Positions 14,942 to 29,940 of a stretch of 64,000 nucleotides of DNA are shown here, in pieces. A model generated the notes under the pieces. That model was not told the DNA's origin, searched no databases, and was given only the letters and a program-made list of their open reading frames with translations. A program made the position numbers and the translations under genes. Numbering within the stretch: the first letter of the stretch is position 1; each line of letters starts with the position of its first letter. The stretch is taken from positions 3,187,279 to 3,251,278 of the forward strand of contig AP025583.1 of NCBI GenBank assembly GCA_022846095.1, in the 5' to 3' direction. This DNA comes from Oscillospiraceae bacterium. GTDB taxonomy: Bacteria; Bacillota; Clostridia; Oscillospirales; Oscillospiraceae.

Positions 14942-16648
14942 ATGGCGTACCAGCGCATAGGTGAGATGCTGCTGGCGAGGGGACTGATAACGGAGGCTGA
15001 ATTGGCCCGCGCGTTAAAAGAAAAGGAGCGCTCCACAAAGCGTATTGGTGAAATCCTGATTGCCCAGGGTGCCGTCGGGGAAGATGCGTTTCTAGTGGTG
15101 CTGGGCGATCAGTTGGGGGTACAGGTGGTTGATTTGGCGGCATACCCGCCTGCGCCCGGTGCGATGCAGCTTATTGACCAGACGCTGGCGAAAAAATACG
15201 GGGTGGTTCCGCTGGGAACCCAAGAAGACACCCTGTATGTGGCCATGACAGACCCTCTGAACTTTTTTGCTGTGGAAGATATTAAGCGGCAGACGGGTTT
15301 AAAAGTCGTTACCATGCTGGGCTCTCATAGAAGCATCGACCAGACGCTTGCAAAGCTGTACGGGAACGCCGATGCAGACCAGGCGCTGCAAGAGATTAGC
15401 CAACGCGCCGGTGAAGGGCCCGTACAAATGGATTCCAACGTGGTGGCCGGGGTAAACAGGATTACGGACGACCCATCGGCTGCGCCGACCGTCCGTCTGG
15501 TCAATTCCATCCTTGAGCGCGCTATAACGGAGCGGGCCTCAGACGTTCATTTTGAGCCCCGCGAGTCGGAGATGGTTGTGCGGCTGAGAGTTGACGGGGC
15601 GCTGCACACCTTGTTCCACATCCCCATGCAGGCAATGAATTCGGTGATTTCCAGGTTAAAAATTATGGGCAATATGGACATTGCGGAGCGAAAGATCCCC
15701 CAGGACGGCCGCGCTAATATCCAGTTGCGGGAACGCAGCGTGGACCTTCGTATTTCCACGCTCCCCACGGTATATGGTGAGAAGATGGTTATCCGGCTTC
15801 TCGACAAAGCCGCGGCAAACCTGGGCAGGCAGGGAATTGGGCTGACAGGCACCAGCCTGGAGCGCTATGAGGCCCTGCTGCGCAATTCCAGCGGCGTCCT
15901 CTTGATTTCCGGCCCTACAGGCTCCGGCAAATCCTCCACCATGTACACCATGATTCAGGATCTGAACACTGAGGATGTCAACCTTGTCACCCTGGAGGAC
16001 CCCGTGGAGTTCAATACGGAGGGTATTAACCAGTGCCAAATTAATGAGAAGACAGGCATGACCTTCGCAAACGGACTGCGTGCAATCTTGCGGCAGGACC
16101 CGGACATTATCGTCGTCGGAGAGATACGGGATGGTGAAACTGCCTCCATTGCAATGCGCGCCGCTATTACCGGCCACTTGGTCCTCTCCACCATCCATAC
16201 GAACGATACGATTGCAACGGTGGACAGGCTGCTGGACATGGGGGTAGAGCCCTTCCTGATTTCCACGGCGCTCAAAGGCGTAATCGCCCAGCGGCTTGTT
16301 CGGCGCATTTGCCCGCGCTGCAAGGAGCACTACTCCCCCACCAAGGAGGAATGTGAGCTGGTGGGGATCCCTTACCGGCCCGACCTTCTGTTTTATCGTG
16401 GCAGGGGCTGCCGTGAGTGCTTCGACAGCGGCTACCGCGGACGGGCGGCGGTGTTTGAGATTCTGCTCGTGGACAACGCAATCCGCAAGCTGATTACGTT
16501 AAAGGCGGATCGTGAGGAGTACATGCACACTCTGACCGGATCGACCTTCCTGTCCCTTTCCGATTATAGCAGGAACATGATTCTCGACGGGGTCACAACT
16601 GCCCAGGAGGCGGTACGCACAATCTACTCTACCGTATCCGAGGCGTGA
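14942..16648 (+). CDS. pilB: type IV pilus extension ATPase PilB
   Basis: This 568-residue GspE/PilB-family hexameric ATPase powers pilus polymerisation at the inner face of the membrane. The N-terminal third is an MshEN-type domain, which binds cyclic di-GMP in some relatives. Walker A is G-P-T-G-S-G-K-S at about residues 324-331, followed by an Asp box (E-D-P-V-E-F) and Walker B/His boxes (V-G-E-I-R-D, S-T-I-H-T-N-D). A Zn-binding tetracysteine (C-P-R-C ... C-R-E-C) lies near residues 460-495. It is the first gene of the pilus operon and is followed at short spacing by pilT. An EAL-domain gene lies downstream at 30494. Confidence 0.95.
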   Translation: MAYQRIGEMLLARGLITEAELARALKEKERSTKRIGEILIAQGAVGEDAFLVVLGDQLGVQVVDLAAYPPAPGAMQLIDQTLAKKYGVVPLGTQEDTLYVAMTDPLNFFAVEDIKRQTGLKVVTMLGSHRSIDQTLAKLYGNADADQALQEISQRAGEGPVQMDSNVVAGVNRITDDPSAAPTVRLVNSILERAITERASDVHFEPRESEMVVRLRVDGALHTLFHIPMQAMNSVISRLKIMGNMDIAERKIPQDGRANIQLRERSVDLRISTLPTVYGEKMVIRLLDKAAANLGRQGIGLTGTSLERYEALLRNSSGVLLISGPTGSGKSSTMYTMIQDLNTEDVNLVTLEDPVEFNTEGINQCQINEKTGMTFANGLRAILRQDPDIIVVGEIRDGETASIAMRAAITGHLVLSTIHTNDTIATVDRLLDMGVEPFLISTALKGVIAQRLVRRICPRCKEHYSPTKEECELVGIPYRPDLLFYRGRGCRECFDSGYRGRAAVFEILLVDNAIRKLITLKADREEYMHTLTGSTFLSLSDYSRNMILDGVTTAQEAVRTIYSTVSEA

Positions 16649-16678: not shown

Positions 16679-17740
16679 ATGGAGCTTGTTGAAATCATTC
16701 AAAATGCACTGGGGAGCAAGAATGTTTCCAGTGCCTCCGACATCCACCTGGTCTATGGACTTCCTCCCAAGATGCGGCGGGACGGTAAGTTGGACGCCCT
16801 TGAAGGAGCACCCGCGCTGGATGACGCGCAGTGCATCAAATTTGCAAAAGAGCTGGCGGGGGATCAGTGGGGGGAAGTTGAAAACGGGGGTGAATTGGAT
16901 TTGGCCCGCACCTATGGGCAGGTGCGTATCCGCGGCAACCTATTTTGGCAGCAGGGGCACATTTCCAGCGCAATCCGTCTTCTGAGCGATAACATACCGG
17001 CGCTGGAGGCGCTGGGGCTTCCCTCCGTCGTCTCGACGTTTCCGGACTTCAAACGCGGTGTCGTCCTCGTGACAGGCGTAACCGGCTCAGGCAAGTCGAC
17101 AACGCTGGCCTCCATACTTCAGCGGATCAATGAAACGCGCTATGACCATATCGTTACGCTGGAGGACCCCATCGAATATATCTACCACCCCCAACGCTGC
17201 GTCATCAATCAGCGGGAGATCAACCGCGATACCGATAGCTACGCAAGCGGCCTGAAGGCTGTGCTCCGTGAGGACCCGGACGTCATTCTGATCGGAGAAA
17301 TGCGCGATTTGGAGACCATCCAGATTGCCCTAACCGCGGCGGAAACGGGACATCTGGTCTTTGCAACGCTCCATACAGCCTCCGCGCCGGACTCTGTCGA
17401 CCGTATAGTGGAGGTGTTCCCCACCGGCATGCAGAAGCAGATCCGCATGCAGCTGTCGCAGACCTTACAGGCCGTGCTCTCCCAGCAGCTCCTTCCCAGG
17501 GCGGGCGGAATCGGACGTGTCTGCGCGTGTGAGGTAATGGTGGTCAACCACGCAATCCGCAACCTTATCCGCGAGGGGAAAACGCCCCAGATCGCCAACG
17601 CTTTGGCGACCTCCGCGGACGAGGGCGGCATCACAATGGACAACGCGATTCTGCGCCTGCTGGCCTCCAGAGTTATTACACCAGAGACGGCGCTGCGCGC
17701 CGCCCGCGATCCGGAGCTGCTCTCCAAGAGCTTCGTTTAG
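16679..17740 (+). CDS. pilT: type IV pilus retraction ATPase PilT
   Basis: This 353-residue PilT-family ATPase drives pilus retraction and so twitching or DNA uptake. It has the N-terminal PAS-like half, Walker A (G-V-T-G-S-G-K-S, about residues 131-138), E-D-P-I-E-Y, the Walker B region with I-G-E-M-R-D, and A-T-L-H-T-A. It lacks the MshEN domain and zinc cysteines of PilB, which separates it from the extension motor. The start has only a weak ribosome-binding site, so expression may be coupled to pilB 30 bases upstream. Its presence predicts retractable pili. Confidence 0.93.
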   Translation: MELVEIIQNALGSKNVSSASDIHLVYGLPPKMRRDGKLDALEGAPALDDAQCIKFAKELAGDQWGEVENGGELDLARTYGQVRIRGNLFWQQGHISSAIRLLSDNIPALEALGLPSVVSTFPDFKRGVVLVTGVTGSGKSTTLASILQRINETRYDHIVTLEDPIEYIYHPQRCVINQREINRDTDSYASGLKAVLREDPDVILIGEMRDLETIQIALTAAETGHLVFATLHTASAPDSVDRIVEVFPTGMQKQIRMQLSQTLQAVLSQQLLPRAGGIGRVCACEVMVVNHAIRNLIREGKTPQIANALATSADEGGITMDNAILRLLASRVITPETALRAARDPELLSKSFV

Positions 17741-17761: not shown

Positions 17762-18961
17762 GTGCCTACGTACAGGTATAACGTAATCTCCGATTCCGGC
17801 GAAAGGCTCAGTGGCGTTTTAGAAGCGTCTGACGAGTTTGACGCGGCCCGAAAAATTAAGACGTCCGTCGGTGGGTTCATCCAGACCATATCACGGGTCG
17901 GCTTTAATATTGACATCGAGCTTACCAAGCCGAGGCTCCGTGAGAAATCACTCTCCATGTGCTGTTCCCAGTTCTCAATTCTACTGAAGGCAGGTCTGCC
18001 TTTGGCGCGCACGGTAGAGGTCGTGGCGGAGCAATCGGTGGACAAAGTGCTAAGAAAAATTCTCCAGGAGGTCCTGAAGGACGTCAGGGAGGGTTATGGC
18101 CTTGCAAACAGCCTGGAGAAGCACGGTGATGTGCTGCCCCTTGTCTTTACGGAAACAGTGCGTGCGGGCGAGGCATCCGGCACCCTGGAGTCCTCCTTTG
18201 CCAAGATGGAACAGTACTTCAGCAAAGCGTCCAAGCTGAAGAAAAAGGTCAAGAGCGCCATGACCTATCCCATTTTCCTGATCGTGGTCGCAGTCGTAGT
18301 GGTTGCCATTGTCGTGCAGATGGTGCTTCCGGCGTTTCTCCCCATGTTCGCGGGCCGGGAGCTGCCCATCCCGACGCAGGTTCTCCTCAGCATCTATGGC
18401 TTTTTTGCAAGCTACTGGTACATCCCACTCGCGGCGGTCATTTTATCGGCCATGCTCTTTATAAACTACCGGAAGAGCGAGCTTGGAAAACTGAATCTGG
18501 CCCGCACGGTACTTAAGCTGCCCATCATAGGCAAGGTCGGCACCATGAACGCCGCCGCCCAGTTCTCCAACACCATGGCGGCCCTCCTGTCCTCCGGCTT
18601 GCCCATGGTGCACGCTCTGAAAATCACGGGAAAGGTGCTCAGCAACCTGGCCGTGGGCCGCTCCATCCAGGAGGCGACAAAAGGAGTCACGGAGGGGAAG
18701 CGCCTGGGGGAGGCCATGCGGGAGAACCAATTTCTGCCCCCGCTTCTAATCGAGATGACGGCGGTGGGCGAGGAGTCGGGCGCCTTGGAGGAGACGCTGT
18801 TTACCATCGGCGCCTTCTACGACGAGGAGGCGGACGCCGCCACCACCAGCGCGCTCTCCAAGCTTGAACCCATTATTACTATCGTAATGGGAATGGTTGT
18901 GGCTTTTATCATGATCGCACTCTATATGCCCATGTTCGATATGGTGGGCGGCATTACCTGA
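17762..18961 (+). CDS. pilC: type IV pilus inner-membrane platform protein PilC
   Basis: This 399-residue GspF/PilC-family protein has two homologous cytoplasmic helical domains (about residues 60-180 and 265-385), each followed by membrane helices near 170-195, 215-235 and 370-395. Hallmarks include 'F-S-I-L-L-K-A-G-L-P-L' and 'E-E-S-G-A-L-E-E-T-L'. It links the ATPases to the growing pilus. The GTG start is supported by GAAAGGA just upstream. The two major pilin genes follow directly. Confidence 0.93.
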   Translation: MPTYRYNVISDSGERLSGVLEASDEFDAARKIKTSVGGFIQTISRVGFNIDIELTKPRLREKSLSMCCSQFSILLKAGLPLARTVEVVAEQSVDKVLRKILQEVLKDVREGYGLANSLEKHGDVLPLVFTETVRAGEASGTLESSFAKMEQYFSKASKLKKKVKSAMTYPIFLIVVAVVVVAIVVQMVLPAFLPMFAGRELPIPTQVLLSIYGFFASYWYIPLAAVILSAMLFINYRKSELGKLNLARTVLKLPIIGKVGTMNAAAQFSNTMAALLSSGLPMVHALKITGKVLSNLAVGRSIQEATKGVTEGKRLGEAMRENQFLPPLLIEMTAVGEESGALEETLFTIGAFYDEEADAATTSALSKLEPIITIVMGMVVAFIMIALYMPMFDMVGGIT

Positions 18962-19035: not shown

Positions 19036-19479
19036 ATGCGGAAACTGAAAACGAGCGCGCCCGGTCTGAAGCAGAAGCTCAAAAGCGCGGCCGCCTTCAC
19101 CCTGGTGGAGCTATTGATCGCCGTCGCCATCGTTGGCATCCTGGCCGCCATTGCCATTCCCGCGTACAGCTCCTCCGTGGAGAAGGCCCGTGTGAATACG
19201 GATTTAGCCAACGCCCGCGCGGCCAACTCCCTGGCCACCTCCGATTATACGCTGGAGGGCAGAGCCGGTAACGTTGCTTATACCTTTGTAGTAACCGAAA
19301 GTGGGAACATTGCCATCTCGAACCCCCTGCCCGCCGGCGTACCGGTCCCCACCGGCGCGGCGGTTACAGCCCTCTCGCAAAAGCTCCTTGGGGGCACCGC
19401 CGGCGGCGCCCCATTCCTTATCGTCATCGTAAATAACGGCACGGTAAAAAACAGCTGGCTCTCGGTACTTAACAACTAA
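19036..19479 (+). CDS. pilA: type IV pilin, copy 1
   Basis: This is a 147-residue prepilin. A 20-residue basic leader ends in S-A-A-A, followed by F-T-L-V-E-L-L and the hydrophobic assembly helix; the conserved Glu is at mature position +5. Unusually, the residue before the cleavage site is Ala20 where prepilin peptidases normally need Gly, whereas copy 2 has Gly. The globular domain is short, has no disulfide cysteines and ends in N-S-W-L-S-V-L-N-N. It is about as long as copy 2 and near-identical through the first 50 codons, so they are tandem duplicates that diverged at the exposed C-terminus. Confidence 0.9.
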   Translation: MRKLKTSAPGLKQKLKSAAAFTLVELLIAVAIVGILAAIAIPAYSSSVEKARVNTDLANARAANSLATSDYTLEGRAGNVAYTFVVTESGNIAISNPLPAGVPVPTGAAVTALSQKLLGGTAGGAPFLIVIVNNGTVKNSWLSVLNN

Positions 19480-19512: not shown

Positions 19513-19552
19513 ATATAAATACTTAGTATAGATAGAAAGGAAGTTGACACAA

Positions 19553-19987
19553 ATGATGCAGAAACTGAAAACCAACGCACCCGGTCTGAAGCAGAAGCTC
19601 AAAAGCGCGGCCGGCTTCACCTTGGTGGAGCTTTTGATCGTGGTCGCTATCGTGGGTATCCTGGCCGCCATCGCCATTCCGGCGTACAGCGCCTCTATGG
19701 AGAAAGCCCGTGAAAACACTGATTTGGCCAACGCCCGCGCGGCCAGCTCCCTGGCCACCTCCGACTATATGCTGCAAGGCAGGACTGGTGCTGTAGCCTA
19801 CACCTTCGTTATTACTGCCGATGGTAACCTCGGCATCTCGAGCCCCACGGTTGCTGGCGCACCAACCCTTACTGGCAACCCTGTGAAGGCCCTCTCGCAA
19901 AAGGTTCTCAACGGTGCAACCCCGGCTCTGACAGTCAGCGTAAATGACGGCGTGGTAAGCAATAACTGGATTGATTATTTGACCTAA
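19553..19987 (+). CDS. pilA: type IV pilin, copy 2
   Basis: This 144-residue prepilin has a canonical cleavage site: basic leader, S-A-A-G, then F-T-L-V-E with Glu at +5. The start is ATG 19553 (ATG 19556 is also possible); the TTG at 19544 is only 2 bases after the GAAAGGA site and is rejected. After the shared helix and 'E-K-A-R-x-N-T-D-L-A-N-A-R-A' segment, the C-terminal domain diverges from copy 1 (ends W-I-D-Y-L-T). It is probably the major pilin, because its processing site is intact. Strong RNA hairpins follow it. Confidence 0.92.
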   Translation: MMQKLKTNAPGLKQKLKSAAGFTLVELLIVVAIVGILAAIAIPAYSASMEKARENTDLANARAASSLATSDYMLQGRTGAVAYTFVITADGNLGISSPTVAGAPTLTGNPVKALSQKVLNGATPALTVSVNDGVVSNNWIDYLT

Positions 19988-20147: not shown

Positions 20148-20975
20148 TTGATAAGTTCCCCCGAGGTTCTGCTCTACCTGCTGCTGGCCGCCGCTGCCGC
20201 CGTGCTGGGCGCCTGTATCGGCTCCTTTTGCAACAACTGGGCCTACCGCGCCTGCCGGAAGCAGTCGGTGATACTGGGACGCTCCAGATGCCCCGCCTGT
20301 AAGCATGTGTTGGCGGGCAGGGATTTGATCCCCTTGGTCAGCTGCCTCCTGCTCAAGGGCCGCTGCCGCTACTGCGGCAGGGGTATCTCCATCCGCTATC
20401 CGCTCACGGAAGCCGCCACAGCCGTCTTCTATTTAGCCGCCTTTGTTCTCTTTTTCCCCGCAAACGATTTGGAGCTGGTGCGCTGGTCGGTCCTGGCGGG
20501 ACTGACCCTTACCCTCGGCCTGGTGGATTTGGAGAGCTGGGAGCTTCCGAATGGACTGATCCTGGCCGGAGTCCTCTGGTTTTTTATCCTTGTCCCTTTT
20601 TCCGGGCTTCCCTCACTGTGGATGGGGCTCGCCGGCAGCGCCGTCATAGCCGTCCCCCTGCTGCTGCTGGTTTTGCTGATGGACAAGCTGCTCGGAAAGG
20701 AGACCATGGGCGGGGGCGATATTAAACTTGTCGCGATGCTCGGCCTCCATCTGGGCGCCGGCAGGACCCTGCTGACCCTGATAATCGCGTGCATAATCGG
20801 CATCCTGATGGCTCTGCTCTGGAAACCCATCGTGCCCCCTGTCCCCGGAGAGGAGGGAGCTTCCCAACCCCGCCCAGGCAGAATACCCTTTGGCCCGGCG
20901 CTGATCCTGGCCGCGTGGATATGCGCCCTGTGGGGAAAACCGCTCCTTGATCTGTACTACTCGGCATTTGTATAA
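20148..20975 (+). CDS. pilD: prepilin peptidase / N-methyltransferase PilD
   Basis: This 275-residue membrane aspartyl protease cleaves prepilin leaders and methylates the new N-terminus. The first domain carries the zinc-type cysteines C-P-A-C-K ... C-R-Y-C-G (about residues 48-80). The peptidase domain has the first catalytic Asp in L-V-D-L-E-S-W-E-L-P-N and the second in G-G-G-D-I-K-L. Six or more hydrophobic helices are visible. The start is TTG 20148, preceded by GGAG; the ATG 4 bases upstream is out of frame. It would process both major pilins and the minor pilins encoded downstream. Confidence 0.93.
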   Translation: MISSPEVLLYLLLAAAAAVLGACIGSFCNNWAYRACRKQSVILGRSRCPACKHVLAGRDLIPLVSCLLLKGRCRYCGRGISIRYPLTEAATAVFYLAAFVLFFPANDLELVRWSVLAGLTLTLGLVDLESWELPNGLILAGVLWFFILVPFSGLPSLWMGLAGSAVIAVPLLLLVLLMDKLLGKETMGGGDIKLVAMLGLHLGAGRTLLTLIIACIIGILMALLWKPIVPPVPGEEGASQPRPGRIPFGPALILAAWICALWGKPLLDLYYSAFV

Positions 20976-21014: not shown

Positions 21015-22040
21015 ATGGCATCGAACACGACAAAGCCTTGCTTGGGATTTGACTTCGGCGGTGTGTACATGAAACTGGCGCTGACGGACAAGAAAGGCAT
21101 ATCCCGTATCATCGTGGAGGAGTTCCCGGAGGGAATATTCAAGGATGGCGACATCACCGCCCCCAATTCCGCGCTGGTGCTTCTGCGGGAGGTTTTAAAA
21201 AAGCACCGCGTCAAGGCGAAGGAGTGCGCCTTTATCCTACCGCCGGGAAAGGTCCTGTTTCGTCAGCTGAGTACGCCGGTGATGGACGCCCACCAGATCA
21301 GAAAAAACCTTCCGTTTGAGTTCCGGGACCTTATCTCCGGGAAGAAGGAAGACTACTTTTTCGACTATGCCATTGGCAGTTACCAGAAAAACGCGGACGG
21401 TGAAGTGACGGGGCTAAACTTAATGATAAGCGCTGTTCAGAGAAAAAATATGGAGTCCTATATCCGCTTTTTCAATAAACTCGGCATTAAGCTTCGGGTC
21501 GCCGCCCCTCTGGAGAGCGCCTTCTCCAACATTATCCGTACTTATGAGGCCAATCACTTGGACGTGCCCGAGGGCAGGGATTATTGTTTTCTGGACATCG
21601 GCCATAGTGCGACCCGCATCCACCTGTACTCCGGCCCCCTGTTCCAGGCCACCCGCGTCATCGAGTATGGCGGCGCAATGGTGGAATCGGCCATCGCCCG
21701 GGATTTGAACATCGACCTGAGCGCCGCAAGAGCCTATAAGGAAAACAGCCAGGAGGCCACGCGATACCTCAAGGAAACCTCCACGGCCTATACCAGCATT
21801 GCCCTGGAAATACGCAAGGCCGTCAACTTTTACAGCAGCAATGAAAAGGAGCTGCGCAAAATCGAGACTATCTATTGCTGCGGCGGAGGCGGCTGGATGA
21901 CCCCGCTGCTCGACACGATTCGGGAGGGTGCCGGTCTGGAGATCCGTCCGATTACCGAGCTTCTGCCACCCAATCGGAACGATGCAGAGGGGGGGCTCAA
22001 CCTGATCGGGGCGGTAGCGGTTGGAATTACGCTGCAATAA
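21015..22040 (+). CDS. pilM: type IV pilus assembly ATPase-fold protein PilM
   Basis: This 341-residue actin-like protein forms the cytoplasmic ring that binds the N-terminal tail of PilN. Visible actin-fold signatures are the phosphate loop G-F-D-F-G-G-V-Y-M-K near the start, D-I-G-H-S-A-T-R (about residues 195-202) and Y-C-C-G-G-G-G in the adenosine motif. AAAGGAG lies 8 bases before the ATG. The gene order pilM-pilN-pilO is the standard one; no pilP or pilQ follows, as expected without an outer membrane. Confidence 0.9.
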   Translation: MASNTTKPCLGFDFGGVYMKLALTDKKGISRIIVEEFPEGIFKDGDITAPNSALVLLREVLKKHRVKAKECAFILPPGKVLFRQLSTPVMDAHQIRKNLPFEFRDLISGKKEDYFFDYAIGSYQKNADGEVTGLNLMISAVQRKNMESYIRFFNKLGIKLRVAAPLESAFSNIIRTYEANHLDVPEGRDYCFLDIGHSATRIHLYSGPLFQATRVIEYGGAMVESAIARDLNIDLSAARAYKENSQEATRYLKETSTAYTSIALEIRKAVNFYSSNEKELRKIETIYCCGGGGWMTPLLDTIREGAGLEIRPITELLPPNRNDAEGGLNLIGAVAVGITLQ

Positions 22041-22052
22041 GGGGGATGAAAA

Positions 22053-23600
22053 ATGGGAGACTGGGATAAGTTCAGGTGGACGCCGCCGGCCGCCGGAGAC
22101 AAAGTGGATCCTCCGGTTGTGGATCCATTGGCAGGAGCATCGGCCACGGGAAGCATTTCCTCGCAGGCGGAGGTGGATGCGGTACTTAAGGAAGTTGTAG
22201 AGGTAATCGAGCACGGCGTGGACACCAGCCGCTGGCATTCCGACGATGAAGCGCAGGCGGAACAGCAGGATGGGCCTGGAGGATATGCATACTGGACGGG
22301 CGGCCCCTCCAGCCCGGAGCCGCTGCCCGCCGGCACGCCGACTGCCGGCGTGGAGCATATCAAAGCTGCCGTGGGGCTGGCGATTGCTGACGTGCACAGC
22401 ACAGTGCATGGTGAGGAGCCACCGGAGGCCGCACCGCGCCAGGAGTTTGATCCGGCTACGGCAGCAGCTGTAGCCGCCGCAATGGCAAACGTGTTTACAA
22501 GCCTGAGCGGGACACGTTTTGCCACCGGGCAGGAGACGCCCGGCCAGAGTGCCGGGCCCCGCGACCCTCTGGACATTAACGAGGTATTCTCCGCCATATT
22601 CAAAGAAGCACAGCGCAATGCCCCTGCCGGGCCCCCGGAAGATCAGCAGGCAGCGTCGGAGGTCATTGAAGCGGATGCCTACCAGGTCGCGGAGTCACGC
22701 GATCAGCCTGCCGCAGGTGCCTCCGCCCGGGATGTCCCTGCGGATGATGGACCGGCAGAGGCTTCGGCCAGGGCCAGGGTTCAGGAGGAGCCGGATGCGG
22801 CCTCCCGTCCCCCCGTGTCAGAGCCGTCCACGCCGCCCAAGAGGAAACGGGAGAAAACACGCCAGCAATCGCGGGACAGGGCGCCTTATCGCGGCGTCCG
22901 GGGACGCCGTAAGCCCCCAAAGCTCAGGATCGCCAAGGGCTTTAAGGCGAAAGGGATGCGGGGCAGCCTGGATACCGACAAGACCGCCCTGAACATGGCG
23001 GTGAAGGTCAAAACGCTGGCCAGCCCATCCAGGGCCATCCCGCTCTTCCTCTTAGCCTGTGTCATGATATTGGCGTTTTCAAAATTCGGTGTAATCGACC
23101 AAATGGAGCGTGAGCGCGCGCTTCAGCGCCAGCTTACCCAGCTTCAGGAAGAGAGTCAGCGTCTTATTGCAGCAACGGCGGACTATGACAGCGTGTTCCA
23201 GAAATATTTGCTGTACGGCACCACGTGGATGAGCGAAGCGGAACTGGCGCAGGTGGATGTCATGGATGTGCTCGCCATCTGTGACGACACCATATTACCC
23301 AACGCCAGAATCACTGAAATATCCATGAACAACAATTTAGTGGACATGACCGTGTCTGGCATCAATCTGATCAAGGCGGCTTCCCTGACGCAGCAGCTGG
23401 AGGACCTCCCCCTTGTAAGGAGTGTTTCGCTCCAGCTGGTAACACTGAATACTGGCGAAACACCTGCCATTCCGTTGGATCCTGCCTACTCCGCACCCAC
23501 TAAATCGACGGCTTATCAATTCCAGATAAAACTTGCATTGCCCGGAGCACCCGAAGAGGCGGGCGAGGAAGAAGGAGGCAGCATAAATGGAACAGCTTAA
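22053..23600 (+). CDS. pilN: PilN-like protein with long disordered cytoplasmic extension
   Basis: This protein has 515 residues, against roughly 200 for typical PilN. The C-terminal part is PilN-like: one membrane helix at about residues 327-347, a short coiled coil and a small alpha/beta periplasm-type domain. The preceding 320 residues are low-complexity, rich in Ala, Pro, Glu and Gln. A strongly basic stretch (about 265-315, with K-R-K-R-E-K and R-G-R-R-K-P-P-K) lies next to the membrane. The PilM-binding motif expected at the N-terminus is not obvious, though the first residues (W-D-K-F-R-W) could serve. The identity rests on order between pilM and pilO and on topology. Confidence 0.75.
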   Translation: MGDWDKFRWTPPAAGDKVDPPVVDPLAGASATGSISSQAEVDAVLKEVVEVIEHGVDTSRWHSDDEAQAEQQDGPGGYAYWTGGPSSPEPLPAGTPTAGVEHIKAAVGLAIADVHSTVHGEEPPEAAPRQEFDPATAAAVAAAMANVFTSLSGTRFATGQETPGQSAGPRDPLDINEVFSAIFKEAQRNAPAGPPEDQQAASEVIEADAYQVAESRDQPAAGASARDVPADDGPAEASARARVQEEPDAASRPPVSEPSTPPKRKREKTRQQSRDRAPYRGVRGRRKPPKLRIAKGFKAKGMRGSLDTDKTALNMAVKVKTLASPSRAIPLFLLACVMILAFSKFGVIDQMERERALQRQLTQLQEESQRLIAATADYDSVFQKYLLYGTTWMSEAELAQVDVMDVLAICDDTILPNARITEISMNNNLVDMTVSGINLIKAASLTQQLEDLPLVRSVSLQLVTLNTGETPAIPLDPAYSAPTKSTAYQFQIKLALPGAPEEAGEEEGGSINGTA

Positions 23601-24150
23601 AAAGCCGCTCGGTAAGCAAGCCGCCGTTTTTGTGCTCATATTACTCCTGGCCGGGATAGGCGCCCTCTATTACGTACTCTTCCTCCAGCCTCTCCTGGGA
23701 AGTATCTCCAGCACAGAAAATCAAATACTGACTGAGCAGGACAGCCTGGAAGTGCTGCGATTGCGCGCAACAAAGTGTTTGCAAATGAAAGACGAACTGC
23801 AAACGGCGCAGGATAATGAGCAGCCTGTGGTTGAATATAACAACCAAAAAGCATTGATGACCGCGCTGGAGCCCGTTTTGGCGCCCATGCTGGGTTATGA
23901 GCTGTCGTGGGAAGGCGCGCCCAGTGAGGACGCAACGCTGTATCGCCGTGAGCTATATCTCACGTTTCGCTGCTCCGGCTATGCGCAGGCACGCCAGATG
24001 GTCGCCGGGCTTCACGGACTGCCCTTCCGGTGCCAGGTCAGCGCGCTTACCATTGCCGCCGGAGCTGAGCAGGGCGACCGGGGAGATGGGAATATTTTAA
24101 CGGATGAGATCGCCGGCAGCGTAGTGATTACATTCTTCGAGGCACTGTAG
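23587..24150 (+). CDS. pilO: PilO-like pilus assembly protein
   Basis: This 187-residue protein has a short cytoplasmic N-terminus, one membrane helix (about residues 13-34), a coiled coil and a C-terminal ferredoxin-like domain, the PilO layout. It overlaps the PilN-like gene by 14 bases and has AAGGAGG before its ATG, so the two are made together. PilN and PilO normally form the heterodimer that connects the PilM ring to the pilus. Direct sequence similarity is weak; assignment relies on topology and order. Confidence 0.75.
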   Translation: MEQLKKPLGKQAAVFVLILLLAGIGALYYVLFLQPLLGSISSTENQILTEQDSLEVLRLRATKCLQMKDELQTAQDNEQPVVEYNNQKALMTALEPVLAPMLGYELSWEGAPSEDATLYRRELYLTFRCSGYAQARQMVAGLHGLPFRCQVSALTIAAGAEQGDRGDGNILTDEIAGSVVITFFEAL

Positions 24151-24180
24151 CGCGCGTTTGGTAAAAAGGAGGTCCCTGCG

Positions 24181-26370
24181 GTGGGTGAGGTGAGAAAATT
24201 ACGTCGAACCAGCGGGTTTACACTGGTGGAAGTCCTGATAACCGTTGCCGTTTTGGCGGTTATAGCCAGCTTTGCAATGCCGGCCTTTTCCAGCTTCCTT
24301 AAGGACTCAAAGATGGCGGAACTGGATCACGGTGCTAAGCAGATTTTTCTGGCGGCGCAAAACCGAATGATTTCCATGCGGACTGCCGGGGTATTGAGCA
24401 GTATCGACCAGCCTGTCAGCCTGGGCACCGTCAGCCTTGCCGATGATGCGGCTGCCGGCATTATTAAGGATTACTCATATGTCGATACTGCAGCGGCCGG
24501 ATCAGATGCTGCCGTGAAAAAAATATTGGGTCATATACTCCCCGTGGGGGCCGTGTCCAATGAGATATACTCCGGGCACTACATTCTTATTTTCGATACC
24601 CAAACAGGCCTTATGCGGGGCGTGCTTTACTCTGAGCACTGGTTGGACAGCGGGCGCATCAGGGATCTGATGGATAATTTCACTCTTCGCAGAGAGCAGC
24701 TGGTTGGGTTCTATGATGGCGGGGGCGTCGTCACGCCGGACGTGGCGGAGCTGCCAGCCCCCATTTTAACGGTTGAAAATGGGGAGCGCTTATTGGTAAA
24801 AATACAGCTGCCTGTCACGATAACCGATCCCACGCAGGTGCAGGTCAAGTTGACCGTGGAACATCAGGAGTTGTCCGGGCAGAACGTGACCTGGAATTTG
24901 GACTGCAGGGTTGCCGCGGGCAATGGCTTCGATGAGGTGGACACCAGCGACATTCGAAACAAAACCTATATCAAAGTGCTCGACGAATTGAGCGGTACGG
25001 TATCTGAAAGCGGCGCAAAGAGTTTTGATGCTGTATGCAGCTCAATTGCAGCCGGCGCGAATATACGCATCACAGCTTCGCTGGTTCCCGTTCCCTCCGC
25101 CAGTGCGGATTTCCGGCCGTCAATCAGCGTTTCTCAGGAGACAAACAGCCTGTTTGACTCAATGGAGCTCGAAGGCGATACCGTCAGGATCCGTATTGCA
25201 ACCGGGCGGCATCTGCAAAACCTGCGGTGGTTCTCCGGGTGGGGCCGGGATATTTTTACACCTGAAATGCTTCCCACGCTTACTTCCGGCATGAGGCCTT
25301 ATTTTACGGTGGAGCAGAGCAACCGTATCGACTGGACAAGCTATTACGGCAGAAAAGGAATCAGTTTTTACCCACTGGAGGACATTGATTATTTAAAGTC
25401 ATTCAACGGCAACGGCCTGGAGATAAGCGGGCTGCGCGTTCTAACCTCGGACGGGGCAGGCGGGGCAGGGATTTTTGGGCGGCTGGGGGCGGGCCGGGCC
25501 GCAGACGGCGGGCCGGAGTGCGTATTTACCAGTGTCAACATAGTCGATCCCGTCATCCGGGCCGGCGGGAGCAGCACTGCCGCAGGCGCCTTGGCCGGGA
25601 TAACCAGCAAGACCAGATTTACCGACTGCCACGTATTTGTTACGGACACAGCCAATCTGAACAACTATGGCGTTTGGAGCGGCGACATAGCCGGCGGCTT
25701 GATCGGCATGGCAACAGGCGCCTCCTTTAATCATTGCAGTGCATCTATGCCTAATATTGTTGTCCGAACCAATTCAGGTACCGCAGGAGGGTTAGTCGGA
25801 ACAGCTGTGGCGTGTTCGTCACTCATCAATTCCTACGGCAACACAGGGAATCTGGCTTCCTCCGCCAGTTCCTATGCGGCGGGCGCACTGGTTGGATCAG
25901 TTATCCCTTCCAGTGTGGAGATGCAGGTCCGGAATAGCTACGGAATTGGGAATATAAGCGGCCGGTGGGTCTATCCGTCCGGACTGATTGGAAACGGGCT
26001 GTCCAGCAAACTGTCAAACTGTTACGCCTTAACAACGTTCGCGGGCGCTTCTCTGGCATCTCCGGGGATAAACAATTCCTTTCATGGGGTCGCTTATGGC
26101 GCAAATCTCGGCAGCATACTGCTTTGCCTCACAAGGGATGTGAGCGCCGTCCCCGGCGACGCGGGGTTTGAGCCCCAGGGCGCTACCTTTGCCAATAAGG
26201 ATGAATTTTCCAGGCACTTCTTTGATGACGGAAATTGGGGAATGGTATCGGCCACAGGCACATTCCCATATTCCAATGCGCTTCGCGGCCTAGCATATCC
26301 CTATCCCGTCTCAAAAGGCGCGGGCGGAGGCAATACCGTGTACGGGGACTGGCCACAGTTGGGGGGATGA
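24181..26370 (+). CDS. very large prepilin with GLUG-type repeats, candidate pilus-tip adhesin
   Basis: This 729-residue prepilin has a GTG start supported by AAAGGAGGT. The leader ends in T-S-G with cleavage G12/F13, followed by F-T-L-V-E (Glu +5) and a normal assembly helix. The large exported part contains Ig-like segments (about residues 195-330) and a C-terminal series of G-G-L-I-G, G-G-L-V-G and G-A-L-V-G motifs. These match GLUG repeats seen in bacterial surface adhesins. Its size and place at the head of the minor-pilin genes fit a tip-located adhesin incorporated by the pilus. It would be processed by PilD. Confidence 0.85.
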   Translation: MGEVRKLRRTSGFTLVEVLITVAVLAVIASFAMPAFSSFLKDSKMAELDHGAKQIFLAAQNRMISMRTAGVLSSIDQPVSLGTVSLADDAAAGIIKDYSYVDTAAAGSDAAVKKILGHILPVGAVSNEIYSGHYILIFDTQTGLMRGVLYSEHWLDSGRIRDLMDNFTLRREQLVGFYDGGGVVTPDVAELPAPILTVENGERLLVKIQLPVTITDPTQVQVKLTVEHQELSGQNVTWNLDCRVAAGNGFDEVDTSDIRNKTYIKVLDELSGTVSESGAKSFDAVCSSIAAGANIRITASLVPVPSASADFRPSISVSQETNSLFDSMELEGDTVRIRIATGRHLQNLRWFSGWGRDIFTPEMLPTLTSGMRPYFTVEQSNRIDWTSYYGRKGISFYPLEDIDYLKSFNGNGLEISGLRVLTSDGAGGAGIFGRLGAGRAADGGPECVFTSVNIVDPVIRAGGSSTAAGALAGITSKTRFTDCHVFVTDTANLNNYGVWSGDIAGGLIGMATGASFNHCSASMPNIVVRTNSGTAGGLVGTAVACSSLINSYGNTGNLASSASSYAAGALVGSVIPSSVEMQVRNSYGIGNISGRWVYPSGLIGNGLSSKLSNCYALTTFAGASLASPGINNSFHGVAYGANLGSILLCLTRDVSAVPGDAGFEPQGATFANKDEFSRHFFDDGNWGMVSATGTFPYSNALRGLAYPYPVSKGAGGGNTVYGDWPQLGG

Positions 26371-27155
26371 TCGCTATGTGTCAAATTCGGCGTAAGGTTT
26401 CGGCCCGTACAGGAGCGGCACTGCTTCTGGCCCTTTTCTACTTTCTCTTGTGCTGTGTGGTCGGTGGCATTACCGTCACGGCAGCCTCGACCAACGCAGT
26501 TAGAATGTCGCGGGCAAAACTTGACCAGCAGACTTATCTTGCGGTCCGTTCGGCAGCACGCACATTAATTGCCGATTTGGAGACTACATCGCTGCAGGGC
26601 ACGTTCCAGGTGCGCAGCAACAGAATCAATTGGCACGGCGGCGTAGTCGGAAACGAATTCCACACCTGCTTCCCCTATAGCCAGCTAAACGGCGTCTTTG
26701 TAAACGGAAGGCTTGCTGATTTGTTGCCGGAGGAGGATTTAAAAAATCTCTATCTCAGCACCGTGGAATACGCTTCCGGCGGCACGAGCTCCTATGTTCG
26801 TCAAAAAGTCTCCAGCAGCGACTCCGACTGGGACGGATCTCCCATGGCCTTTACTTATAGAACGCCAATATCTGTTTCCTTTGAGATGGAAGTCAACGGC
26901 TACCCCTCTATCCCACCAGTCTTGGTAACGCTCACCTTCGGAACGGCGAGCGGAAAGCAGATGGAGGCCGAACTTACGCTGAAAAGCCGGGACGGCAGCT
27001 ATCAAATGGTTTTCCGCTCCCGTGTAAGCCGCTTCCGCAGCCCGCGTACCGATCCGGAGCGAATTATGTCCAGTGAAATGGATCGCACCTGGTTCCAGCA
27101 GAATACTACCGTAACGGACACGTTCACCTGGACAAATTGGGAGGCGGTGGAATGA
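26367..27155 (+). CDS. PilX-like minor pilus protein
   Basis: The ATG at 26367 overlaps the preceding TGA (ATGA), so this start is chosen over an upstream in-frame ATG inside the previous gene; it gives 262 residues. A basic N-terminus and A-R-T-G-A-A-L-L-L-A-L-F-Y-F helix resemble PilX-type N-terminal segments, with Gly before the hydrophobic core but no Glu at +5. The exported remainder is beta-rich and unrecognised. Position among minor pilins supports a role in pilus initiation or tip complex. Confidence 0.7.
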   Translation: MIAMCQIRRKVSARTGAALLLALFYFLLCCVVGGITVTAASTNAVRMSRAKLDQQTYLAVRSAARTLIADLETTSLQGTFQVRSNRINWHGGVVGNEFHTCFPYSQLNGVFVNGRLADLLPEEDLKNLYLSTVEYASGGTSSYVRQKVSSSDSDWDGSPMAFTYRTPISVSFEMEVNGYPSIPPVLVTLTFGTASGKQMEAELTLKSRDGSYQMVFRSRVSRFRSPRTDPERIMSSEMDRTWFQQNTTVTDTFTWTNWEAVE

Positions 27156-27156
27156 T

Positions 27157-27501
27157 ATGCGAAGCTTGAAAAAAAGGAAGTGGAGCCAGCGCTTACGGGA
27201 TCAGTGCGGGGCAACGATACTGGAAATCCTCTGCGCCCTATTGCTGGTGGCGATGACCTCGCTTCTTTTCTCGAAGCTGATTGGAACGGCAAACACAATC
27301 AATATTGCCGCCGATAAAGTAACACGGGAATTGGAGCAGGAGCTCACCATTACTGAAAGCAGCACTGCCTCCGGGTCCCACGGCGTGCCGGGCCGCATTC
27401 GGGTAACTGCCTCTGGGCCTGGGGCGCCTTACCGGGAAATCAACGTGTATTTGTACACCTCCGGCCCGGATTCACTTATTGCCTATGAAATCAGGCCATG
27501 A
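27157..27501 (+). CDS. minor pilin-like protein
   Basis: This 114-residue protein has a long basic leader (18 residues) ending in Q-C-G, then A-T-I-L-E-I-L. The cleavage site would therefore be Gly18/Ala19 with Glu at +5, an acceptable variant of the usual Phe +1. The hydrophobic helix is followed by a short exported domain. It starts one base after the preceding stop. Such small minor pilins usually help start pilus assembly. Confidence 0.75.
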   Translation: MRSLKKRKWSQRLRDQCGATILEILCALLLVAMTSLLFSKLIGTANTINIAADKVTRELEQELTITESSTASGSHGVPGRIRVTASGPGAPYREINVYLYTSGPDSLIAYEIRP

Positions 27502-27517
27502 TGGAGGCGATTGAACC

Positions 27518-28009
27518 GTGAGAATAATGAAGCTAAAAGACCGGGGCGGTTTTACACTGATTGAGGCACTGATTTCCGTTGCACTTCTCGGTATTTTTAC
27601 AATGGGTATTGGCGTCGGTGTTTCTGCCGCAGCCCAGACAATGGGGAGCTCCGTAACTGTCTCGGAGGCCGGGCTGCTGTCAGATACCCTGGTGAAAGCG
27701 ATCCGGGGAGAATTGCGATATGCCCGGGATATTGTATCCGGCGGCGGTACTGCCGTTTATACCAGCCAGCGCTACGGGACTACAGCGACGATAGTGGACA
27801 ACCCCAATACGGAAGGCAATGCAAGAATATATGTGGCGTCCGACGCCGGCTACTTTGACCTCTTGAGCGAAGGCGCTTATACCAATCTACAGGCGAATGT
27901 CTCTGTCACATACAACGAAGCCCAATCGACCTTTGAGGTAGAGCTCCGGATTATTCTGCCCGGCGGGCAGATTAGAACTACAAATTTCAAGGTCTACACT
28001 CTGCTTTAG
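27518..28009 (+). CDS. minor pilin (pseudopilin-like)
   Basis: This 163-residue protein has the leader M-R-I-M-K-L-K-D-R-G-G and cleavage at Gly11/Phe12, followed by F-T-L-I-E-A-L-I-S with Glu +5. The GTG start lies 11 bases after a GGAGG site; an ATG nine bases later is the alternative. The exported part is a small beta-rich domain without cysteines. It closes the four-gene minor pilin set. Confidence 0.85.
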   Translation: MRIMKLKDRGGFTLIEALISVALLGIFTMGIGVGVSAAAQTMGSSVTVSEAGLLSDTLVKAIRGELRYARDIVSGGGTAVYTSQRYGTTATIVDNPNTEGNARIYVASDAGYFDLLSEGAYTNLQANVSVTYNEAQSTFEVELRIILPGGQIRTTNFKVYTLL

Positions 28010-28048
28010 CAGTCAATCCAAGCTTATAAGTTGAAAGGAGCGGAAAAA

Positions 28049-29014
28049 ATGAAAGCTGTTGAAATGCAATTACGTACCGTTGCTATGGGTGGTTATGCAA
28101 AGGAAGACGTCCAAAGGTACATCGAAAATATGGAGCGTGACTATCAGGAGCGCAGGGAGAGCATGGAAAAGATACTCGCTGCGGCCCAGCGGGCCAGAAG
28201 CGAGGCTGAGATGAAACTTTCAAGCCATCAGTTCTCTCAAACGCAGAACAGCGATGAGGTTCAGGCGCTTCGGGCACGCGCATCGGAGCTCGAGGCTAAA
28301 GTGAACGAGCTCCAGGTACAGTTGGTGGCAAAGGATACAGAGCTGCGCGCCGCCCTAAGTGAATTGGAGCAGGCGCTGGCCACCGGAGATGGTTCCGCCG
28401 CAGCGGCCGAGTTGGCTTCAGCACGCCTGGAGATTGCTGCACTCAAAGATAAAATTACACGGCTGCAGGAGGAGCAGGGCTCCTCCGAGGAACTGGAGCT
28501 GCTGAGGAACAAGCTGAGTGAACAGGAGATGATCCTGCCCGTCCTCAATCAAGAGAATCTGGCACTGAAGGCCAAGGTGGCTATGCTGGAGAGCGCAGGC
28601 ATGGAAAAGCTGGAATCGCTTCAGCATGAGCTGGACGCCGCGCGGACCACGATCAGCCAATATGAGGCCGCCGGACTTAATCTTCAGCAGGCGGAGGCCC
28701 AGTCCCGCACGCTGGAAGAAGCGGCTCAGCGCCGCGTGAAGGAGCTCCTGAGCGATGCCGAAGCAGATGCGGCAAGGCTGCGCGCTGAAGCCGACACCTG
28801 GCTCCTGGGTGTACAGCGCAACTATGAGCACGTAAAGCAGGGCACACTGGAGAGCGTCCAGCGAGCAGCGGATGAAATCAGCCGCCTTCAGGGACTGCTG
28901 TGTCAGTTGGAGGAGGGAAAAGACAAACAAATGCCGGATTTTAACCAGGCCCATGCCGCATCGCCGAAGATTGTGCAAATGGGCAATTATGAGAAGCAGC
29001 GGGGTGTGCAGTAA
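28049..29014 (+). CDS. DivIVA-like coiled-coil protein at end of pilus operon
   Basis: ATG 28049 is chosen because AAAGGAG (28034-28040) precedes it; the upstream TTG overlaps that site. This gives 321 residues. The N-terminus (L-R-T-V-A-M-G-G-Y-A-K-E-D-V-Q-R-Y-I) matches the DivIVA membrane-binding pattern. The rest is almost entirely coiled coil with a short Gln/Asn-containing tail. DivIVA proteins mark poles or septa, so it may localise the pilus machine. A shorter DivIVA-like protein lies upstream of pilB at 14079, so the operon is bracketed by two such proteins. Confidence 0.75.
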   Translation: MKAVEMQLRTVAMGGYAKEDVQRYIENMERDYQERRESMEKILAAAQRARSEAEMKLSSHQFSQTQNSDEVQALRARASELEAKVNELQVQLVAKDTELRAALSELEQALATGDGSAAAAELASARLEIAALKDKITRLQEEQGSSEELELLRNKLSEQEMILPVLNQENLALKAKVAMLESAGMEKLESLQHELDAARTTISQYEAAGLNLQQAEAQSRTLEEAAQRRVKELLSDAEADAARLRAEADTWLLGVQRNYEHVKQGTLESVQRAADEISRLQGLLCQLEEGKDKQMPDFNQAHAASPKIVQMGNYEKQRGVQ

Positions 29015-29073
29015 TAGCCCAACAGCCTGCGTAAGCTGTCCGATGCAGAACAAACTTGAAGAGGGTGTTGCTG

Positions 29074-29940
29074 ATGCAAAAAGTGGGCATTTTGACCGAT
29101 TCTGCTTGCGATTTGCCGCCGGAACTTCAACGGCGTTATCAAATTGATATTTTAAATTTCCATATCAGAATAAACGGTAAAGATTACGAAGAACGTAAAG
29201 ACTTTATGCCCAAGCAGTTTTATTCCATGTTGGCGAAGGTACAGTCCACCCCTACCACGGAAATTATATCGGCCGGGGAATACCTGTCCGCCTACCAGCG
29301 CTATTCCGAAGCGGACTATACGGACTTACTTATTGTAACTATCGCCTCAAATGTTTCACAGACGAATAATAACGCGCATCTCGCCCTCACCCGCTTCTAT
29401 GCGCAATATCCTGAGAGCACCTTGAGACTTCACATCATCGACAGCAAGCTATTCTCCATGGGATACGGCTACCCCCTCTGTATTGCCGCGGCGATGCTCC
29501 AGCAGGGAATAGATGTAAATGCAGTGATTAGCTATCTGGAGGACTGTTTTTCGCGAATCGAATTAGTATTTGCCGCCTATACCTGCAAATACTTAAAGAT
29601 GTCAGGCCGCACCAAAGGCTTTGCGGCCTTTATAGGAGATCTTTTCCGCCTCCGGCCTATGATGTCTTACATTGATGGCATTTCAAACGCCGAGGCCAGC
29701 ATCCAGGGTAACAAAGGGGTCATTCCCGCCATGTGCGAATACGCCGGAAGACGCATTGACCGCAGCCAGCCCTACCTGGTGGGCACAACAATGGATTCTC
29801 ATAGTAAGCTCCTTATTGACGAGTGTACACGCACCTTTGGATACGCCCCCCAGATGGTCTTTGACATTGGCTGTTCCCTGGCAACACACCTCGGACCTGA
29901 AGGGGATGCTATTGTCTTTTTTGGAGACAAAAGAAACTAA
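29074..29940 (+). CDS. DegV family fatty-acid-binding protein
   Basis: This is a 288-residue protein from ATG 29074 (GAGGG 9 bases upstream); a TTG at 29056 is less likely. The DegV signature G-I-L-T-D-S-A-C-D-L-P opens the protein. Further family segments are V-Q-S-T-P-T-T-E, the T-I-A-S-N-V-S-Q-T-N motif and I-D-S-K-L-F-S-M-G. Family members bind a fatty acid between two domains and present it to fatty-acid kinase (FakA). No kinase is in the window. This gene is more A+T-rich than the pilus operon before it. Confidence 0.88.
   Translation: MQKVGILTDSACDLPPELQRRYQIDILNFHIRINGKDYEERKDFMPKQFYSMLAKVQSTPTTEIISAGEYLSAYQRYSEADYTDLLIVTIASNVSQTNNNAHLALTRFYAQYPESTLRLHIIDSKLFSMGYGYPLCIAAAMLQQGIDVNAVISYLEDCFSRIELVFAAYTCKYLKMSGRTKGFAAFIGDLFRLRPMMSYIDGISNAEASIQGNKGVIPAMCEYAGRRIDRSQPYLVGTTMDSHSKLLIDECTRTFGYAPQMVFDIGCSLATHLGPEGDAIVFFGDKRN

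Follow-up and report, generated by a model that had tools for sequence, protein, structure and literature searches.

A modular GLUG prepilin of an Oscillospiraceae bacterium as a candidate H-type subunit of a type IV pilus tip complex

The window analysed here is a 64,000-nucleotide stretch of an Oscillospiraceae bacterium (G000:C1:3187279-3251278, part of a 4.31-Mb single-contig genome), in which a type IV pilus (T4P) operon contains a 729-residue prepilin, here termed BIG, followed by three minor pilin genes, X, S1 and S2. We consider it probable that BIG acts as the H-type minor pilin within an HIJK-like tip complex, with an Ig/FN3 spacer and a GLUG β-solenoid grafted onto the C-terminus of its pilin module, such that a ligand-binding solenoid would be displayed at the pilus tip. 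A first-pass annotation had singled out this gene set; it had not recorded that, at 729 residues, BIG lies at the small end of its family, nor that the genome harbors three T4P loci of the same layout, the other two encoding big proteins of 1871 (L009) and 709 residues (L010).

Genes in the order PilB-T-C-A-A-D-M-N-O precede BIG, X, S1 and S2; neighbors among the latter four either overlap or lie apart, by between a few and about 30 bases. The first-pass annotation had proposed a 729-residue prepilin with a class III leader at position 24181, and this was confirmed: the leader reads RRTSG/FTLVE (slash, proposed cut), scores 27.2 bits with Pfam N_methyl (cut-off 21.2) and carries a glutamate at mature position 5 (Glu5), with G12 and E17 invariant across 34 aligned rows. 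In an AlphaFold model built from 34 aligned relatives (mean predicted local distance difference test score [pLDDT] 82.1, predicted template modelling score [pTM] 0.73; residues 626–666 below 50), the predicted Ig-like part was likewise recovered, residues 190–339 giving FN3/Ig fold matches with Z of about 9. The proposed GLUG-type repeats were borne out as a fold, since the model shows a multi-turn β-solenoid at residues ~374–621, but only one Glug motif (residues 504–526, 21.3 bits) exceeds the curated Pfam cut-off of 20.5.

Structural alignment with VIA-align placed BIG residues ~267–721 on the Bacteroides ovatus GLUG protein 3n6z (Z 29.4, root-mean-square deviation [rmsd] 3.1, 288 aligned residues), and IgA1 proteases were matched with Z 23.9–24.6 versus Z 12–14 for pectate lyases. 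By sequence profile, the solenoid matches residues 158–369 of the IgA1 protease 6xjb (1.1e-17), whereas the fold alignment takes residues 774–1089 (entry numbering). Foldseek with the BIG model gave no match at E ≤ 0.001, and the fold relation therefore rests on VIA-align and the profile match. We take IPR011493 to be GLUG. The 2021 survey of modular type IV pilins, in the part accessible to us, includes the architecture IPR012902-IPR011493 and calls it a predicted M26 peptidase (PMC8179133), which, along with the IgA1 protease and lower-scoring pectate lyase matches, would suit a tip-borne enzyme, either an M26-like protease or a β-helix carbohydrase. We regard such an enzyme as very improbable, as the IgA1 protease parts matched by BIG are β-helical stretches and as an HExxH motif was not found in BIG and occurs in only 4 of 111 relatives. 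No LPxTG motif lies in the last 60 residues of the 111 relatives either, leaving the prepilin helix as the sole anchor seen.

BIG is not a chance product, as 33 of 300 sampled genomes of the same GTDB family match it (E ≤ 1e-8), and the family is common in gut Clostridia. The genome_contigs collection gave 165 pattern stretches, of which 134 code for a relative and 80 were kept. These stem mostly from metagenome-assembled genomes, and their labels include Oscillospiraceae, Lachnospiraceae, Erysipelotrichaceae and Clostridiaceae, among others; a lone Atopobiaceae and a lone Dehalococcoidales record may reflect misbinning. After pooling and removal of duplicates, 110 open reading frames (ORFs) of at least 600 residues were retained, the 88 complete ones spanning 637–3598 residues (median 1739; the first possible start codon was used, which may overstate lengths by some tens of residues). 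In the same set, 64 exceed 860 residues, 29 exceed 2,000 and eight exceed 3,000. Cut ORFs could be read through adjoining stretches, with no internal stop, to 5,713 (G246, free of unknown residues) and 5,255 residues (G139). The GLUG module is repeated in most long members; in 12 of these scanned with Pfam, little else apart from N_methyl was seen, InlB-type repeats in three of them all falling below the cut-off, and much of the added length is therefore unassigned. BIG itself approximates the minimal form of pilin, Ig part, one module and end. The pilin domain is missing from one complete (L122:14930, 1504 residues) and one cut ORF (L146:2642).

Two larger figures were discarded. A 28,243-residue open frame (G253:C6) was dropped as a length claim because 72,000 of its bases read N; its unmasked start, of at least 3,706 residues (L172), is counted as cut. 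A class-wide profile search (62 of 391 genomes, E ≤ 1e-20) mostly retrieved GLUG domains of other proteins and does not give the frequency of giant pilins. Other large prepilin-like ORFs of 420–534 residues (L047:9445-11049, L052:7574-9103 and L053:556-1818) share with the family only the N-terminal motif, and an additional Glug-bearing open frame of 1173 residues lies elsewhere in the host genome (L209, G000:C1:1734678-1734749).

We searched the surroundings of the family members for the X-S1-S2 trio with profiles from the window genes and relatives, tolerating overlapping genes. The trio lies directly downstream of the big gene in 42 of 110 loci and directly upstream in 32. Among 66 testable loci (complete, with at least 2.5 kb on either side), 54 carry the full trio and 56 at least two members, while two carry one and eight none. 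The trio of two of these eight, L176 and L184, stands before PilB in the same locus; L175 has pilus genes and no trio that we could see. Glu5 is present in 76 of 79 S1, 84 of 85 S2 and 103 of 107 BIG sequences, versus 0 of 78 X sequences, even though the site picker favored Glu by a bonus; most misses trace to a wrong frame or to an ORF that lacks a pilin, the Gln of L185 being genuine. The subunit that caps HIJK tip complexes is one that lacks Glu5 (PMC10191384 and PMC10628169, as far as their accessible parts go). Here too, four minor pilin genes lie together in a T4P operon, one product lacking Glu5 and the others having it; the absence of Glu5 from X is what one would expect of a capping subunit at an HIJK-type tip.

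Several observations weigh against BIG as the H-type subunit of such a complex. At five of the trio-less testable loci (L043, L100, L122, L130 and L147), the stretch examined contains no pilus genes either. X showed no sequence or fold match to GspK or PilX (best Z 3.7), and Foldseek with the X model found nothing at E ≤ 0.001. NCBIfam matches of S1 and S2 to I and J are weak and crossed, and on BIG NCBIfam did not tell H apart from other pilins. The first-pass description of X as PilX-like thus survives in its lack of Glu5, but Pfam PilX_N matches only two of 62 relatives and misses the window copy; the two small minor pilins predicted to follow, S1 and S2, are present. The proposed pilus-tip complex, displaying a bulky domain in a monoderm, is still the best reading, considering a quartet syntenic across many genera in T4P operons, the Glu5-less X and a plain homologue in the BIG slot (see below), with the missing GspK fold match standing against it. 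A search of the host genome for secretin gave no match, which fits a monoderm; the control was positive in 6 of 14 genomes. PilY1 was also not matched in the host genome, but its control matched nowhere, and we claim no absence.

As side observations, six family copies (L090, L100, L122, L147, L150 and L153) lack both the trio and pilus genes within the sequence examined, some flanks being short; their genomes have another family copy inside a pilus operon, and these operon-less copies mostly share one region of the pilin tree. In 73 of 77 S1 sequences, Glu occupies mature position +1 (G/ETLxET, for example L009:5891-6220), which is unusual for a pilin; this residue is Ala in the window copy and Thr in L010.

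In two genomes of one genus (L202 and L203), a plain pilin of 189 or 191 residues occupies the slot of the big gene and scores 118 or 113 bits with the BIG profile; the order at L203 is H-X-S1-S2, and L202 is cut after S1. On account of this plain relative, the giant seems to be an H-type minor pilin onto which modules have been grafted. In a pilin tree (96 rows, 188 columns, arbitrary root), the plain pilins are joined to two divergent members of large size (100/91), so that the plain form fits either an ancestral state or loss. Modules have been gained or lost repeatedly, the long/short length class changing at least 12 times on well-supported branches. Among recent cases this is clearest in an Oscillibacter pair, L117 (757 residues) and L091 (1794 residues): the two are 58% identical over ~720 residues, and only L091 continues, for ~1,050 residues, after the shared core; identity in this pair is 85% in the leader and helix, 77% in the sheet, 59–65% in the Ig part and solenoid and 31% in the C-terminal cap. 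Identity hardly declines along the protein in the pair L130/L123.

Across the 34-row alignment, the pilin helix is the best-conserved part of BIG (44.6% mean pairwise identity versus 25–33% elsewhere). The expectation that the display domain would vary more than the pilin was not borne out overall, identity being higher in the solenoid (33%) than in the pilin sheet or the Ig part (25–26%). We also considered that BIG is a membrane-held surface adhesin acting outside any pilus, its prepilin leader borrowed for export and anchoring. Sizes of up to 5,713 residues are awkward in a filament subunit, and some members lack the trio, but BIG lies within a complete T4P operon, the trio accompanies the family in most testable loci, the pilin helix is the most conserved part and a plain pilin can occupy the same slot; we therefore deem this alternative unlikely.

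Returning to BIG as an H-type tip subunit, we propose that PilD would cleave it after G12, as the motif suggests, and that BIG would be laid down with X (K-type, at the apex), S1 and S2 as pilus assembly starts. The solenoid would then sit at the tip of a filament extended by PilB and retracted by PilT, where its ligand might be a glycan or protein of the host or the diet, DNA, or another cell. The bulk of the protein and its Glu5-less partner suggest a position at the tip rather than in the shaft, as does the analogy with ComZ and with PilB/PilC of Streptococcus sanguinis. Relatives join the same type of pilin to further solenoid modules and other domains, which would yield tip proteins of thousands of residues. 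More tentatively, it is possible, if somewhat short of probable, that in gut Clostridia module stacking has enlarged the tip-complex H subunit of retractable pili, in the extreme to over 5,000 residues, with extra, operon-less copies in many genomes possibly serving as exchangeable heads for the same X-S1-S2 base. Trio-less copies were nearest kin of the trio or operon copy of their own genome in only one of eight comparisons (L124/L130, tied at 0.85), and exchange by recombination thus gains no support.

The family combines a constant pilin and constant partners with a variable display domain, and the plain ~190-residue homologue provides a natural no-graft control. It makes testable how adhesins are displayed on monoderm pili, how a filament tip accommodates a several-hundred-kDa subunit and to what the commensal Clostridia of the gut attach.

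Table 1. Features of the T4P operon and of BIG (window positions)
Feature	Positions	Strand	Basis or remark
PilB extension ATPase	14942..16648	+	T2SSE and MshEN
PilT-like retraction ATPase	16679..17740	+	T2SSE; T label from size and order
PilC platform protein	17762..18961	+	T2SSF
Major-type prepilin 1	19036..19479	+	N_methyl
Major-type prepilin 2	19544..19987	+	N_methyl
PilD prepilin peptidase	20148..20975	+	Peptidase_A24
PilM	21015..22040	+	PilM_2, 66.6 bits
PilN-like, long N-terminal extension	22053..23600	+	Position; matches relatives labelled PilN; no pilus-family Pfam match
PilO-like	23587..24150	+	Position; weak T2SSM; matches relatives
Shine-Dalgarno AAGGAGGT	24166..24173	+	Read directly; 7 nt 5' of GTG
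BIG, modular prepilin, 729 aa, proposed H-type minor pilin	24181..26370	+	GTG start at 24181, stop ends 26370
Class III leader, residues 1-12	24181..24216	+	N_methyl; cut proposed after G12
Pilin module, residues 13-182 (sheet, to ~180 in the model, after helix 15-68)	24217..24726	+	AlphaFold model
Ig/FN3-like domain, residues 190-339	24748..25197	+	AlphaFold model; fold match
GLUG β-solenoid, residues ~340-625	25198..26055	+	Pfam Glug; IgA1 protease profile match; fold match
C-terminal cap ending ...YGDWP	26056..26367	+	Alignment and AlphaFold model; residues 626-666 low confidence
X, 262-aa minor pilin without Glu5 (G/AALLLAL), proposed K-type cap	26367..27155	+	ATG overlaps BIG stop
S1, 114-aa minor pilin (CG/ATILE)	27157..27501	+	Family profile
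S2, 163-aa minor pilin	27518..28009	+	N_methyl

Among the neighboring genes, the PilN-like proteins of the window (515 residues) and of L010 (L010:9519-11309, 596 residues) are oversize relative to the ~190–340 residues of relatives, which is accounted for by a long N-terminal extension. The pilin set is followed by a coiled-coil GpsB/DivIVA-like gene with a weak NCBIfam GpsB match (window 28031-29014; L010:3443-4468) and then by DegV (window 29056-29940), an arrangement found in two of the three pilus loci of the genome. Promoter and terminator scans gave numbers around chance level (10 found versus 9.4 and 22 versus 15.5, respectively) and were therefore uninformative on operon limits.

Modular pilins are an established, published kind, and the GLUG pilin architecture is probably already contained in the 2021 survey, going by its accessible part. 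Pilins of several thousand residues, constant partners, a plain homologue in the slot and repeated module gain and loss were not found in the literature, as searched outside subscription papers and the dataset of that survey. Only PMC10628169 surfaced for giant or mega pilins; judged from partial records, papers on GLUG with pilin were unrelated, and none on Oscillibacter type IV pili concerned these pili by title and abstract.

BIG resembles the modular type IV pilins PilB and PilC of S. sanguinis (Raynaud et al. 2021, PMC8179133, accessible part) in joining an N-terminal pilin to a graft that is not pilus-specific, in a monoderm and next to adjoining minor pilins; its class III signal with N_methyl and its Glug-bearing, IgA1-protease-like solenoid agree with that class. 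It departs from them by its Ig/FN3 part and GLUG solenoid(s), by the fixed quartet with a Glu5-less X and by relatives that reach several thousand residues, against 860 for the most extreme multi-domain modular pilin named in the accessible part of that paper. With PilHIJK/GspHIJK it shares four adjacent minor pilins, one without Glu5, but one subunit is greatly enlarged and no GspK fold match could be detected for the Glu5-less X. IgA1 proteases (6xja, 6xjb and 7uvk) and B. ovatus 3n6z share with BIG the fold of their GLUG β-helix (Z 24–29 over 263–288 residues), yet BIG has neither the protease domain nor the HExxH motif of the IgA1 proteases, and its solenoid is borne on a pilin.

Competence pili of Bacillota usually form a separate ComG system, which we count against the idea that BIG is a ComZ-like DNA receptor on the tip of a DNA-uptake pilus, an idea that we hold to be improbable. 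Its appeal lies in ComZ of Thermus thermophilus, a DNA-binding minor pilin with a large β-solenoid of some hundreds of residues for which a tip location is proposed, a pilin bearing such a solenoid being argued to fit only there (PMC6561018, accessible part). However, going by the accessible parts of that paper and of PMC8179133, DNA binding is demonstrated for ComZ only, and the ComZ solenoid is inserted in the pilin sheet, whereas that of BIG is appended after the Ig domain in our model.

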